DNA of 48,812 nucleotides from Candidatus Altarchaeota archaeon. Its GTDB lineage: Archaea > Altiarchaeota > Altiarchaeia > IMC4 > QMZM01. The stretch is taken from assembly GCA_016931955.1 (NCBI GenBank), contig JAFGDV010000031.1, positions 1-48,812 on the forward strand, in the 5' to 3' direction. The notes below the pieces were generated by a model that was given only the letters and a program-made list of their open reading frames with translations, did not search any database and was not told the DNA's origin. Position 1 is the stretch's first letter; each line of letters begins with the position of its first letter. Of this stretch, positions 29,067-33,145 are shown one piece after another. Made by a program: the position numbers and the translations under genes.

Positions 29067-29819
29067 TTACTCTAATTTAACATAATTCCTTAAAACGCTG
29101 ATGTCTTCGATTTCTATCTCAACAACATCCCCTTCCACAAGAGGGCCGACGCCGGGAACGGTTCCAGTAGCTATGAGGTCTCCTCTTTCAAGCCTCATGA
29201 ATTGGCTGACGAAGCTCACCAGTTTTTCTGGTTTATAGATCATCAACGAGGTCTTGGCGTTCTGCCTGAGTTCGCCGTTGACCTTGCACGTTATCTGCAG
29301 ATCGGATGGGTCAACGTCTGTTTCAATGCATGGGCCGACTGGGCAGAAGGTTGGGAAGCTCTTCGACGCACTCCATTGGATCATCTCTTTTTCTATGTCG
29401 CGAGCTGTTACGTCGTTGACTATGGTGTATCCGAGGATATGTTCCTCTGGCTTTATTATTCTATAGCCTTCTTTCTTGATAACGATTCCGAGTTCGGCTT
29501 CGTGTTCTACCTGGTTTGAATTTTTCGGCAGGATTATGGCCTGTTCGTGAGCCAGTATGGAGTTCCGAGCCTTCAATGTGATAGTGGGTTTCTTGGTGGC
29601 GATCTCCTTCAGTTCGCCCATGTGTGCCCTGTAGTTGAAGCCGACGCAGACTATTTTCTCAGGGTAAACCGGTGGATGAAAGATTATCTCTTCCATGTTG
29701 TAGATTCCTCCAGTCTCTCTCCCAGGATTGAATATGTCTCCTGTGATCTCTTTCACTCCCGCATCATCCAGGATCCCCAGTTTCTCCCCCCCATAAGATT
29801 CAAATCTCACCAATTTCAT
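29067..29819 (-). CDS. fumarylacetoacetate hydrolase (FAH) family protein
   Basis: This metal-dependent enzyme belongs to the FAH/FAHD1 superfamily, which hydrolyses, decarboxylates or hydrates oxo-acids. Typical blocks are IVCVGFNYRAHMGEL, the metal ligands in HEAELGIVI, GYTIVNDVTARDIE, the PVGPCIETDVDPSDLQI segment, and LERGDLIATGTVPGVGPLVEGD. At 250 residues it is the single-domain form. Similar archaeal proteins are often annotated as ureidoglycolate lyase or 2-hydroxyhepta-2,4-diene-1,7-dioate isomerase without support. The substrate cannot be read from sequence. It overlaps the upstream RaSEA-ArcS gene by 20 bases, so the two are co-transcribed. Confidence 0.88.
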   Translation of the reverse strand: MKLVRFESYGGEKLGILDDAGVKEITGDIFNPGRETGGIYNMEEIIFHPPVYPEKIVCVGFNYRAHMGELKEIATKKPTITLKARNSILAHEQAIILPKNSNQVEHEAELGIVIKKEGYRIIKPEEHILGYTIVNDVTARDIEKEMIQWSASKSFPTFCPVGPCIETDVDPSDLQITCKVNGELRQNAKTSLMIYKPEKLVSFVSQFMRLERGDLIATGTVPGVGPLVEGDVVEIEIEDISVLRNYVKLE

Positions 29820-31107
29820 CCTTCAACGCCTCAGATAGACTAGACAAAGCCTCCTCGCCCTGGAGGGGCTTCTTTTGTTTTTTGATTTTCTCGTATATTT
29901 CCATCCTCAGGAGGTTTCTGAACTCCAGATCGAGTTCATGGCATGCCTTATTCAATGCCTTATATGATTCTGAGTCGTATTTCAGGAAACACAGGATTCC
30001 ATCATAGCTGTGAGCCTTCACGTATTCCCTGATCCTCTCCGCCGTCACCTCAATGTATCTTTTTTTTATCTCCTCCGTCTCAAGGCCCTCATCCCAGTCA
30101 TAGGCGTTGAAGGGATACATGTCTTCGAACTCCCTCGGAACAACTCCGGCATTGCTGAGCATGACCTCGTGGATTCTATCCCTGACCTTCAACCTGTTCA
30201 GTTTCTCTATTATCTTTTTATGCGTTTCCGACTCAGAGTACGGCTTCCTATGAGAGCATGGGAGAAACAATATTATCTCCTTGCCCTTCGGGACCTCATA
30301 CCATCTGACAAGATAGTCCTGCCAGACATCAAAATGCGGATGCGTCAAATACTCTTCACCCACACCAGACAATTTCTCCCTTAACTCGGACGGGAACTTG
30401 GGGACAAACCTGAAGGTTTCCACATCAACCCCTATCCTCGGGTCATTCATCCACTTCCCCACTATGTCATAGAACTCGTCCTTGGAGAGGAAACTCCATT
30501 CACCCCTCACCCACATCTTCATAAGCCTGGACATATAGTGAGGTAAGAGGTTTATCAAAACAATGGAATCAGAATACTTTAGTGTGTATTTAACTGAGCT
30601 GTCAAGGCTCTCCTGTACGTCGTCGACGAAAGGGAGATTCACCAGGAGATAGGTTCTAGGCTTCACATCCTTCGACCGCAGCACTTCAACAGCTCGTTCA
30701 AAATCCCTCAGATGAAACCCTTTATTGATTTTATCCAGAATACGGTCGTCGGCAACCTCCAAGCCAATGGCGACCTCAAGCTGCATATCAGAGAACTCCC
30801 CCAATACCCCTGGTGTGATGAATTCCGGGCGCGACTCTACCATCAGCTTCCTTATCCCGGCTTGCCTGCACCTCTCTATGAAGTATCTCCTACCCTCAGC
30901 AGGCATCTGTTGTTCGTCAAAGAAGCTCCCCGAGCCGAAAACCTTTATATGATCAATTTCAGGTTCCAATGTATCGAAAAACAGGTCAAAATAGCGTTTC
31001 ATGTTTTCGGATTCCGGTTTCCTACCCTCTGAGGCACCGTAGCCACAGAATAGACACTTAGACCACTTGCAGCGGCCGAACTTCAGCAGGAATATCTTTT
31101 CCGGCAT
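29800..31107 (-). CDS. fused archaeosine synthase: RaSEA radical-SAM domain plus ArcS core (DUF5591)
   Basis: This 435-residue protein combines two enzymes of tRNA archaeosine (G+15) synthesis. Residues 1-240 match RaSEA: a compact Fe-S motif C13-x4-C18-x2-C21 followed by GYG, HIKVFGSGSFFDEQQMP (52-68), VESRPEFI (90-97), LEVAIGLEVADDRILDKINKGF (110-131) and YLLVNLPFV. Residues about 265-405 match the ArcS DUF5591 domain, with a perfect PC-X3-KPY-X2-S-X2-H signature (P283, C284, K288-Y290, S293, H296) and VPREFEDMYPFNAYDW. Known systems use separate ArcS (adds lysine to preQ0-tRNA) and RaSEA (cleaves the lysine adduct) proteins. The ArcS TGT-like and PUA domains are absent, so tRNA binding must come from elsewhere. 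It overlaps the FAH gene. Confidence 0.88.
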   Translation of the reverse strand: MPEKIFLLKFGRCKWSKCLFCGYGASEGRKPESENMKRYFDLFFDTLEPEIDHIKVFGSGSFFDEQQMPAEGRRYFIERCRQAGIRKLMVESRPEFITPGVLGEFSDMQLEVAIGLEVADDRILDKINKGFHLRDFERAVEVLRSKDVKPRTYLLVNLPFVDDVQESLDSSVKYTLKYSDSIVLINLLPHYMSRLMKMWVRGEWSFLSKDEFYDIVGKWMNDPRIGVDVETFRFVPKFPSELREKLSGVGEEYLTHPHFDVWQDYLVRWYEVPKGKEIILFLPCSHRKPYSESETHKKIIEKLNRLKVRDRIHEVMLSNAGVVPREFEDMYPFNAYDWDEGLETEEIKKRYIEVTAERIREYVKAHSYDGILCFLKYDSESYKALNKACHELDLEFRNLLRMEIYEKIKKQKKPLQGEEALSSLSEALKDEIGEI

Positions 31108-31129: not shown

Positions 31130-33145
31130 CTACTCCCTCACCAGCTTATCTTCTTCTCTAAGGCGCTTAAGTTCTCTCCTAAGAAGCTCTGCCTTCTCCA
31201 TCTCATCAAAATCCTTCATCTTCTTTAAGGCGTCACTCGTCAACGAAAGCTCGACACCGCCCAGAAATTTTGAGTTTACCTTGATGATGCCCTCCTTTTC
31301 CAGCTTCTTAGACCACTGCTTCAGGGTTTCTAGGTCAACGCCCAACTTCTCAGACGCCTTGGCTGCATTGATTTTTTTAACCTTAGTTATCAACGTCTTC
31401 AAATCCTCGGCAGATGGTTTCTTCACTGCAGAAGATTTTTGGGTTATAGGTTCTTCAACAACAGGCTCCTCCTCAACAGGCTCAACAACAGGCTCCTCCT
31501 CAACAGGCTCAACAACAGGCTCCTCCTCAACAGGCTCAACAACAGGCTCCTCGATCTTGGGGAACTTGGGGGTTTCCATTGGAGGCGTTAAACGGGTATC
31601 TTCCCTTTTCTCAAGCTCTTCACTATCCAGTCTCTCCCTTATCTTCCTCAAGTCGGCTTCTTTACGCTCCCTCTCCACTAACTCCCGTTCTCTTCTGGCT
31701 AATTCCTGCTCTCTTTCCGCAAGCTGCAGAGCCATTTCCTTTAACCTCTCCTCACCTTCAACCTCCTTGCCCCACTTAGAGAGTAATTCCTCAACCCTTG
31801 CAGCCTTCTTATCCGCTATCTCCTTCTGCTTAGTAAGATGTTCTTCTCTGCTAGCAAGCGCTTCCTTCTCTGTTTTTATCCGCTGGTCGAGCATTGAAAG
31901 CTCCTTTTCCCGCTCATTAAATATCCTCTCCTTTTCCATCACAGCCTCAACTTCCTTTTGTATATTTCCGCCCCTACTCTGTAGTTCCTCCTTGATCCTG
32001 TTTATCCTCTCCTCTCTGCTATCCAATTCTGGTCTTCTCTGCTCTAGCTCCTCCTTCTCCTTCAAGACCCTTTCTTCCATCTCATAGACTTTTTCTTCCC
32101 TACTCTTAAACTCATCATACTTTTTCTCTATTTTCTTTTCTCTCTCATTCATCTCGCTCTCCCTTTCTGTCAGGATAATGTCACGGCTCTTGATGTCATC
32201 CATCTTCTTTCTCAGAGTTGCTTCCATGCTCCTCAGACGATCCTCGATGGCCTTAAAACTGTTATTTTTTTCCTTCAATTCTCTGGCGCCACTTAAGATT
32301 GTTTCTTGTTTTACGGAAAGTTCTTCCTGTAATGATTTGATTTTTTCCTCCTCAGATAGGAGATTAGATTCCCTCCCCCAGATCTTCTTCTCCATGCTTT
32401 CGAGTTCGAGAATCTTTTGCTCCGAATCCCTTATCTTCTTGCTCCTTTCCTTGAGTTCGGTCTCGGCTGCCTTCAATCTCTTTTCTATATTCATCAACTC
32501 AGATTCTCTGCTGTCAAGCGCCTCCTTTTTAGCCATCAATTTCCCGCTTTCTTCCCTGAGCGCTGCAATATCCTTCTCGGCTTGCTGAATCTTCACCTCT
32601 CTTGCAACCAAACTCTGATGCGCATTTTTCAGGCGCTCCTCAGTCTTCTCCAATTCCTGTTTTTTCTTGATGAACTCATCCTGCCTTCTCTTCAAATCAG
32701 AACTCATAGACTGCAGTTCTGTGTTGAAATTCCGCAGTTCATTCTCCTTTTCGTTGAGCTTTTTTTCTCTAGCATCAAGTTCCAGAACCCTTTTCTCTGA
32801 GTTCTCTATCCTCCTTTTTCTCTCAACTAATTCAGCCTCGGCTGCCTTCAGTTTCTCCTCGAAGTCTTTAAATTCCGCTTCTTTAGTTTCTAGTCTTTTA
32901 TTTCTTTCAAGAAAATTCTTTTCTTTTTCCACCAGTTTGGCTTCCATTTCCTTCAGTATTTCCTTTATCTTCTCTAGTTTCTCTTCTTTCACCCTCAGTT
33001 TGCTCTCAACATCCTTTAAACCGATTTCCTCGCTAAAGAAAAACTGAAGGTCTTCTTCCTTGTCCTTTAACTCTTTCTCCCACTGCTCTAATTCGCTCTG
33101 CCTTCTCTTCAATTCCTCCTGGGTCAGGATTGGTCCACTAGCCAT
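31130..33145 (-). CDS. long coiled-coil protein with C-terminal winged helix
   Basis: This 671-residue protein is almost entirely charged heptad repeat from about residue 5 to 525, without an ATPase head, signal peptide or membrane segment. A Pro/Val/Glu linker of tandem EEPVVEPVE units (about 532-565) follows. A winged-helix-like domain is at about 575-640 (AEDLKTLITKVKKINAAKAS, then GVDLETLKQWSKKLEKEGII with a following wing), and a short charged helix ends the protein. The architecture suggests an elongated scaffold or DNA-organising protein, with the winged helix as DNA-binding or kleisin-like end. I cannot name a family. It lies between the RaSEA-ArcS gene (23 bases) and hef. Confidence 0.7.
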   Translation of the reverse strand: MASGPILTQEELKRRQSELEQWEKELKDKEEDLQFFFSEEIGLKDVESKLRVKEEKLEKIKEILKEMEAKLVEKEKNFLERNKRLETKEAEFKDFEEKLKAAEAELVERKRRIENSEKRVLELDAREKKLNEKENELRNFNTELQSMSSDLKRRQDEFIKKKQELEKTEERLKNAHQSLVAREVKIQQAEKDIAALREESGKLMAKKEALDSRESELMNIEKRLKAAETELKERSKKIRDSEQKILELESMEKKIWGRESNLLSEEEKIKSLQEELSVKQETILSGARELKEKNNSFKAIEDRLRSMEATLRKKMDDIKSRDIILTERESEMNEREKKIEKKYDEFKSREEKVYEMEERVLKEKEELEQRRPELDSREERINRIKEELQSRGGNIQKEVEAVMEKERIFNEREKELSMLDQRIKTEKEALASREEHLTKQKEIADKKAARVEELLSKWGKEVEGEERLKEMALQLAEREQELARRERELVERERKEADLRKIRERLDSEELEKREDTRLTPPMETPKFPKIEEPVVEPVEEEPVVEPVEEEPVVEPVEEEPVVEEPITQKSSAVKKPSAEDLKTLITKVKKINAAKASEKLGVDLETLKQWSKKLEKEGIIKVNSKFLGGVELSLTSDALKKMKDFDEMEKAELLRRELKRLREEDKLVRE
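31456..31551 (-). repeat. 27-base in-frame tandem repeat in the coiled-coil gene
   Basis: Three full and one partial copy of a 27-base unit begin at 31456, 31483, 31510 and 31537. Each encodes nine residues of the EEPVVEPVE linker. The copies are nearly identical at the nucleotide level, so copy number has probably changed recently by slippage, altering the linker length. Confidence 0.9.

Follow-up and report, generated by a model that had tools for sequence, protein, structure and literature searches.

A single-chain fusion of RaSEA and ArcS catalytic domains, a candidate compact archaeosine synthase in Altiarchaeota and other archaea

Archaeosine is a tRNA-stabilising base. In Thermococcus kodakarensis, the products of two genes, ArcS and RaSEA, form a complex that carries out both the lysine transfer and the cleavage of the resulting adduct (PMC11298593). 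ArcS, the archaeosine synthase alpha (NCBIfam NF040592 and NF053620; AF0587, PDB code: 2q07), contains a TGT-like N-terminal part, a DUF5591 domain with the signature PC-X3-KPY-X2-S-X2-H and a C-terminal PUA domain, whereas stand-alone RaSEA (TIGR01210) is built on a radical-SAM barrel. In Crenarchaeota, the same last step is carried out by the GAT-QueC and QueF-like archaeosine synthases (PMC5485725), which are unrelated to the protein described here. A further relevant enzyme is the queuine lyase QueL (PDB code: 6p78), a salvage enzyme that acts on a related 7-deazaguanine and does not contain DUF5591.

We analyzed a stretch of 48,812 nucleotides from an Altiarchaeota genome (hereafter, the window), in which a single open reading frame had been predicted to join RaSEA to the lysine-transfer domain of ArcS. 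This protein agrees with the Thermococcus ArcS-RaSEA system in its catalytic domains (by profile), its signatures and the pathway genes arcTGT and QueC that accompany it. However, it is one chain instead of two, with RaSEA followed by ArcS, and it contains neither the TGT-like domain, nor PUA, nor the C-terminal four-cysteine motif of RaSEA. With 435 residues, it is much smaller than the two separate proteins, which add up to roughly 900-1050 residues in the unfused loci that we scanned. The original prediction knew of no described example, and we found no published description of the fusion in the open full text either, where only the two-protein system is described (the 2019 paper that defined RaSEA lies outside this scope); a survey of DPANN archaea mentions queuosine genes only and not the fusion. 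Far from being an isolated oddity, the protein represents a conserved family present in many lineages, which belong to a large and little-studied portion of the archaea. The architecture is new and its distribution broad; the chemistry, which we infer for this protein, is already known.

Domain architecture and predicted structure of the fused protein

The coordinates of the gene and of its parts are collected in Table 1. A Pfam search with the 435-residue protein detected Radical_SAM at residues 13-163 (E 1e-9, over the curated cut-off) and DUF5591 (PF17884) at residues 262-394 (E 8e-22, 78 bits versus a cut-off of 26). Among the NCBIfam families, the RaSEA model TIGR01210 was by far the best for the radical-SAM half, matching residues 8-183 with an E-value of 3e-38. 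The match ended at about profile position 206-207 of 313, leaving the C-terminal third of the RaSEA profile unmatched, and its score of 131.7 bits did not reach the whole-protein cut-off of 212. Similarly, the ArcS models NF040592 and NF053620 matched the DUF5591 segment only, with 79 and 86 bits versus cut-offs of 440 and 600. These scores below the whole-protein cut-offs count against reading the protein as an archaeosine synthase.

Table 1. Position of the fused gene and its parts in the window
Feature	Coordinates	Strand	Residues and basis
Fused archaeosine synthase, candidate (RaSEA-DUF5591)	29800..31107	-	435 aa, ATG start; ORF, domains, homologues
RaSEA-type radical-SAM half	30403..31107	-	Residues about 1-235; TIGR01210; 6p78 fold match
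ArcS DUF5591 (lysine-transfer) half	29803..30390	-	Residues about 240-435; PF17884; AF0587 2q07 fold match
ArcS signature PCSHRKPYSESETH	30220..30261	-	Residues 283-296; sequence; PC-X3-KPY-X2-S-X2-H

The catalytic motifs are intact in both halves. The cluster motif of the radical-SAM half is CX4CX2C, formed by C13, C18 and C21, whereas stand-alone RaSEA proteins usually have a longer first loop; the motifs SGSFxD, ESR, GLE and KG are common to this half and canonical RaSEA. In the ArcS half, the signature is formed by P283-C284, K288-P289-Y290, S293 and H296. Both the three cysteines and the signature, present as originally claimed, are invariant in 25 aligned full-length homologues from several lineages, with identity down to about 45%. 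Of 48 unique fused proteins, 46 contain the signature in its exact form. Both Pfam domains were found in all of the 25 fused homologues and PUA and TGT domains in none of them (Pfam profile search), in agreement with the prediction that the fusion is devoid of the TGT-like and PUA parts of ArcS and keeps DUF5591 only. With a pI of about 5.8, the protein is acidic, and this, together with the missing RNA-binding PUA and TGT-like parts, is another point against the synthase reading.

AlphaFold, run with the 25-row alignment as input, returned one confident model for the whole chain (pLDDT 91.4, pTM 0.86). In a search with VIA-align, the best structural match of residues 1-233 was queuine lyase 6p78 (Z 19.1, rmsd 2.9, 211 aligned residues), which also has a CX4CX2C motif and is the nearest solved structure of this half, although the similarity of the sequences is weak (E 1e-6). 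Residues 260-435 of the same model matched AF0587 (2q07; Z 15.2, 139 aligned residues), and the DUF5591 half modelled alone (pLDDT 93.6) matched 2q07 with Z 15.5. The profile and fold matches together leave no room for the objection that the C-terminal half might not be DUF5591. Next after 2q07 came uracil-DNA glycosylases of the SMUG1/UdgX type, with Z of 7-8, a level that may mean a common arrangement only, hinting that the ArcS catalytic domain has a UDG-like fold. Such a fold would suit the gripping of one flipped-out nucleotide and its 5'-phosphate, which would fit the use of the preQ0 nucleotide by Thermococcus ArcS, aided by the 5'-phosphate (PMC11298593). arcTGT was not among the listed fold matches of the DUF5591 half alone, although the two may still be related.

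The C-terminus of stand-alone RaSEA proteins (e.g. L076:5966-7063) carries a conserved HNCxxC...CxC motif, which is a possible metal site. Its strict form is present in 30 out of 42 separate RaSEA proteins, and most of the others either have the spacer lengthened by one residue or show part of the motif; it is absent from all 55 fused loci. We know of no described role for this motif. The tail may serve the contact with ArcS or with tRNA and may have become dispensable in the fusion. Its absence could also mean that one of the halves is dead or altered, for instance that the radical-SAM half acts like a queuine lyase, with which it shares the CX4CX2C spacing and the best structural match, so that the protein would perform one step only or make a different product. 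We regard this as very unlikely, given the clear preference for TIGR01210 over any other NCBIfam family, the motifs common with canonical RaSEA, the strict conservation of the catalytic motifs in both halves and the fact that no separate enzyme for the other step was found in the source genome.

Distribution, split forms and phylogeny

Using the alignment of the 25 fusions as the query, we searched 394 archaeal genomes and counted the hits that carried both domains in one frame. The full-span fusion was found as a single ORF in 54 genomes, comprising most relatives in the class of the window organism and about 20 other families. The named fused loci are from Altiarchaeota, Diapherotrites, Micrarchaeota, Aenigmatarchaeota, Nanohaloarchaeota and Parvarchaeota; the closest are those of Altiarchaeota (51-69% identity over the fusion), and three Culexarchaeia/Thermoproteota bins carry the fusion with 37-40% identity. 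Plasmids gave only half-matches, and a scan of viral contigs revealed no relative of the fusion.

RaSEA is always the first domain in the fused loci, and the linker between the halves has a near-constant length of ~35 residues. DUF5591 is single-copy in 53 of the 54 genomes, the exception being G122 with two, and no second match to TIGR01210 above about 45 bits was detected in the 53 fusion genomes searched, in which the fusion itself scores 88-153 bits. No convincing separate ArcS or RaSEA was observed in the 54 genomes. Weak DUF5591 matches in several archaea that have no ArcS (e.g. in G038, G060 and G133) were not accepted as ArcS; they probably lie within arcTGT genes, as the matches in G050 and G133 overlap arcTGT ORFs.

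In the loci of Asgard archaea, Methanosarcinales and other Euryarchaeota examined in the same scan, arcS and RaSEA are separate. Most of these unfused pairs are adjacent, with arcS (560-700 aa) followed by RaSEA (320-400 aa), an order opposite to that of the fusion; simple read-through of such an operon is therefore not how the fusion came about. The adjacency of the separate genes could suggest that the fused frame is an artefact of assembly or a frameshift, but we give this explanation practically no chance, as the comparative data already refute it: the same single ORF, with its near-constant linker and inverted domain order, occurs in 54 genomes. About 50 separate assemblies contain the fused frame, among them a single-contig genome (G015), which rules out chance and misassembly. 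Together with the Pfam and NCBIfam matches, the comparison bears out the prediction that RaSEA and ArcS are joined in one ORF.

Two genomes, G050 and G338, carry the halves as overlapping genes, with RaSEA first as in the fusion. In G050 (C48; L118:2267-3986), a gene for a 361-residue RaSEA overlaps one for a 216-residue stand-alone DUF5591 protein, and a gene for a transporter of the Vut_1 family, which is the YhhQ preQ0-transporter family, lies just upstream. The arrangement appears to be an unfused equivalent of the fusion, accompanied by a possible preQ0 uptake gene. In G338 (C5; L119:3570-4999), a gene for a 253-residue RaSEA-like protein overlaps one for a 235-residue DUF5591 protein, and a Vut_1 gene lies close by. 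This RaSEA-like protein contains CX4CX2C, yet annotation would miss it, since it has no Pfam match and scores only 45 bits to TIGR01210. The signature PC-X3-KPY-X2-S-X2-H is kept in both split DUF5591 proteins; the HNCxxC...CxC tail is present in the G050 RaSEA, beside a mini-ArcS, and absent in G338.

In the RaSEA tree, the fused halves occupy one side of one branch with SH-aLRT 100 in the analysis without the very long L119 row; with this row included, the same branch, where long branches meet, has SH-aLRT 47. In the DUF5591 tree, the fused proteins and the two split mini-ArcS are set apart from full-length ArcS (SH-aLRT 100), with the split forms inside the fused group on long branches. The trees are unrooted and compatible with a scenario in which the fusion arose once and then spread, also by transfer into Culexarchaeia. 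The split forms may be fission products or precursors of the fusion, and neither is favoured owing to the long branches and because a tree with all fused forms in one clade is not rejected (p-AU 0.41).

Pathway genes and the proposed reaction

The source genome (1.55 Mb in 46 contigs) is 92% complete, with 8% missing. Profile searches detected one DUF5591 and one RaSEA match in it, both within the fused ORF; a second arcS or RaSEA, which would have spoken against the prediction, was searched for and not found in this 92%-complete genome, and the same pattern is repeated in relatives. The only TGT-family gene encodes a separate arcTGT of 572 residues with TGT, TGT_C2 and PUA domains (TIGR00432, 504 bits versus an equivalog cut-off of 350). 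QueC is a stand-alone protein of 229 residues, unlike that of the GAT-QueC synthases, and profile searches of the genome revealed neither QueF or QueF-like proteins (PF14489) nor a Vut_1/YhhQ transporter. The source genome therefore contains QueC, arcTGT and the fusion, and no other known last-step enzyme was found in it. The window contains no tRNA gene, and hence no position 15 to be read there.

The neighbourhood of the fusion is an ordinary chromosomal setting; parts of the arrangement Hef, coiled-coil protein, fusion, (FAH hydrolase), HisA are seen repeatedly across Altiarchaeota. The 671-residue coiled-coil protein, encoded on the minus strand at 31130-33145 between the fusion and the Hef-like helicase gene, has no Pfam match over the cut-off; its gene contains a perfect 27-bp repeat (31455-31552, 3.6 copies) that encodes VVEPVEEEP units.

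From the combined analysis, we propose, with a probability of roughly 0.87, that the fused protein is a compact archaeosine synthase in a single chain, which takes preQ0-tRNA as its substrate once arcTGT has acted. QueC would make preQ0, which arcTGT would put at G15 of the tRNA. The C-terminal DUF5591 domain would then add lysine to the nitrile of preQ0-tRNA, and the adduct would be handed over within the chain to the N-terminal radical-SAM domain, which would cleave it via a 5'-deoxyadenosyl radical to give the formamidine of archaeosine. In this scheme, the tight ArcS-RaSEA complex of euryarchaea would be replaced by the covalent link, and the tRNA might be delivered by arcTGT, which has a PUA domain. 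A minimal ArcS domain is plausible, since ArcS can use the preQ0 nucleotide without a folded tRNA (PMC11298593).

The original prediction left it open whether the fusion acts in free lysine-adduct chemistry or relies on TGT for tRNA. Lysine transfer before incorporation, on the free preQ0 base or a mononucleotide, with arcTGT inserting the finished or the lysine-bearing base, would agree with the lack of dedicated RNA-binding domains in the fused proteins and with the activity of Thermococcus ArcS on preQ0 nucleoside 5'-monophosphate (PMC11298593). However, the Km for this mononucleotide is high (433 uM) and Thermococcus ArcS is inactive on the preQ0 base (PMC11298593), canonical arcTGT does not use the archaeosine base (PMC5485725), and the arcTGT of the source genome scores well over the archaeal equivalog cut-off. 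We therefore consider this order of events highly improbable, the inactivity on the free base in particular favouring preQ0-tRNA made by arcTGT as the substrate of the single-chain synthase.

The supply of preQ0 differs among the 54 fusion genomes. Strong QueC was found in 18 of them (17 of the same class and one Diapherotrites-type) and the Vut_1 transporter in eight. Neither QueC nor Vut_1/YhhQ was detected in 29, mostly small DPANN genomes, nearly all of which keep arcTGT. An arcTGT match is present in 51 of the 54, the three without it being incomplete bins. Both the 29 genomes and the three bins count against the synthase reading. Since arcTGT is kept in most genomes without QueC or Vut_1, most of these organisms must obtain preQ0 otherwise, unless the missing genes are hidden by incomplete bins.

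Implications

A broader proposal, which we put forward tentatively and hold to be rather doubtful, is that a large part of the archaeal tree relies on the fusion as its ordinary archaeosine synthase. The adduct would then be handed directly between two active sites at a fixed distance, and only the catalytic domains or arcTGT would hold the tRNA. If so, the minimal ArcS domain would be a nucleotide-gripping lysine transferase with a UDG fold, needing no TGT-like or PUA parts.

The fusion is natural evidence of the Rosetta-stone kind that the reactions of ArcS and RaSEA belong to one functional unit, and this evidence does not depend on the published biochemistry. It would also tell which parts the two-protein enzyme can do without. 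The route via the lysine adduct, which has been described in Euryarchaeota, would be extended to Altiarchaeota, to several phyla of DPANN and to a few Thermoproteota relatives, lineages in which annotations relying on whole-protein cut-offs would overlook it. A protein of 435 residues suits structural work, and a tRNA complex of the archaeosine step has been named as still needed (PMC11298593). The minimal machinery for archaeosine modification can now be tested.
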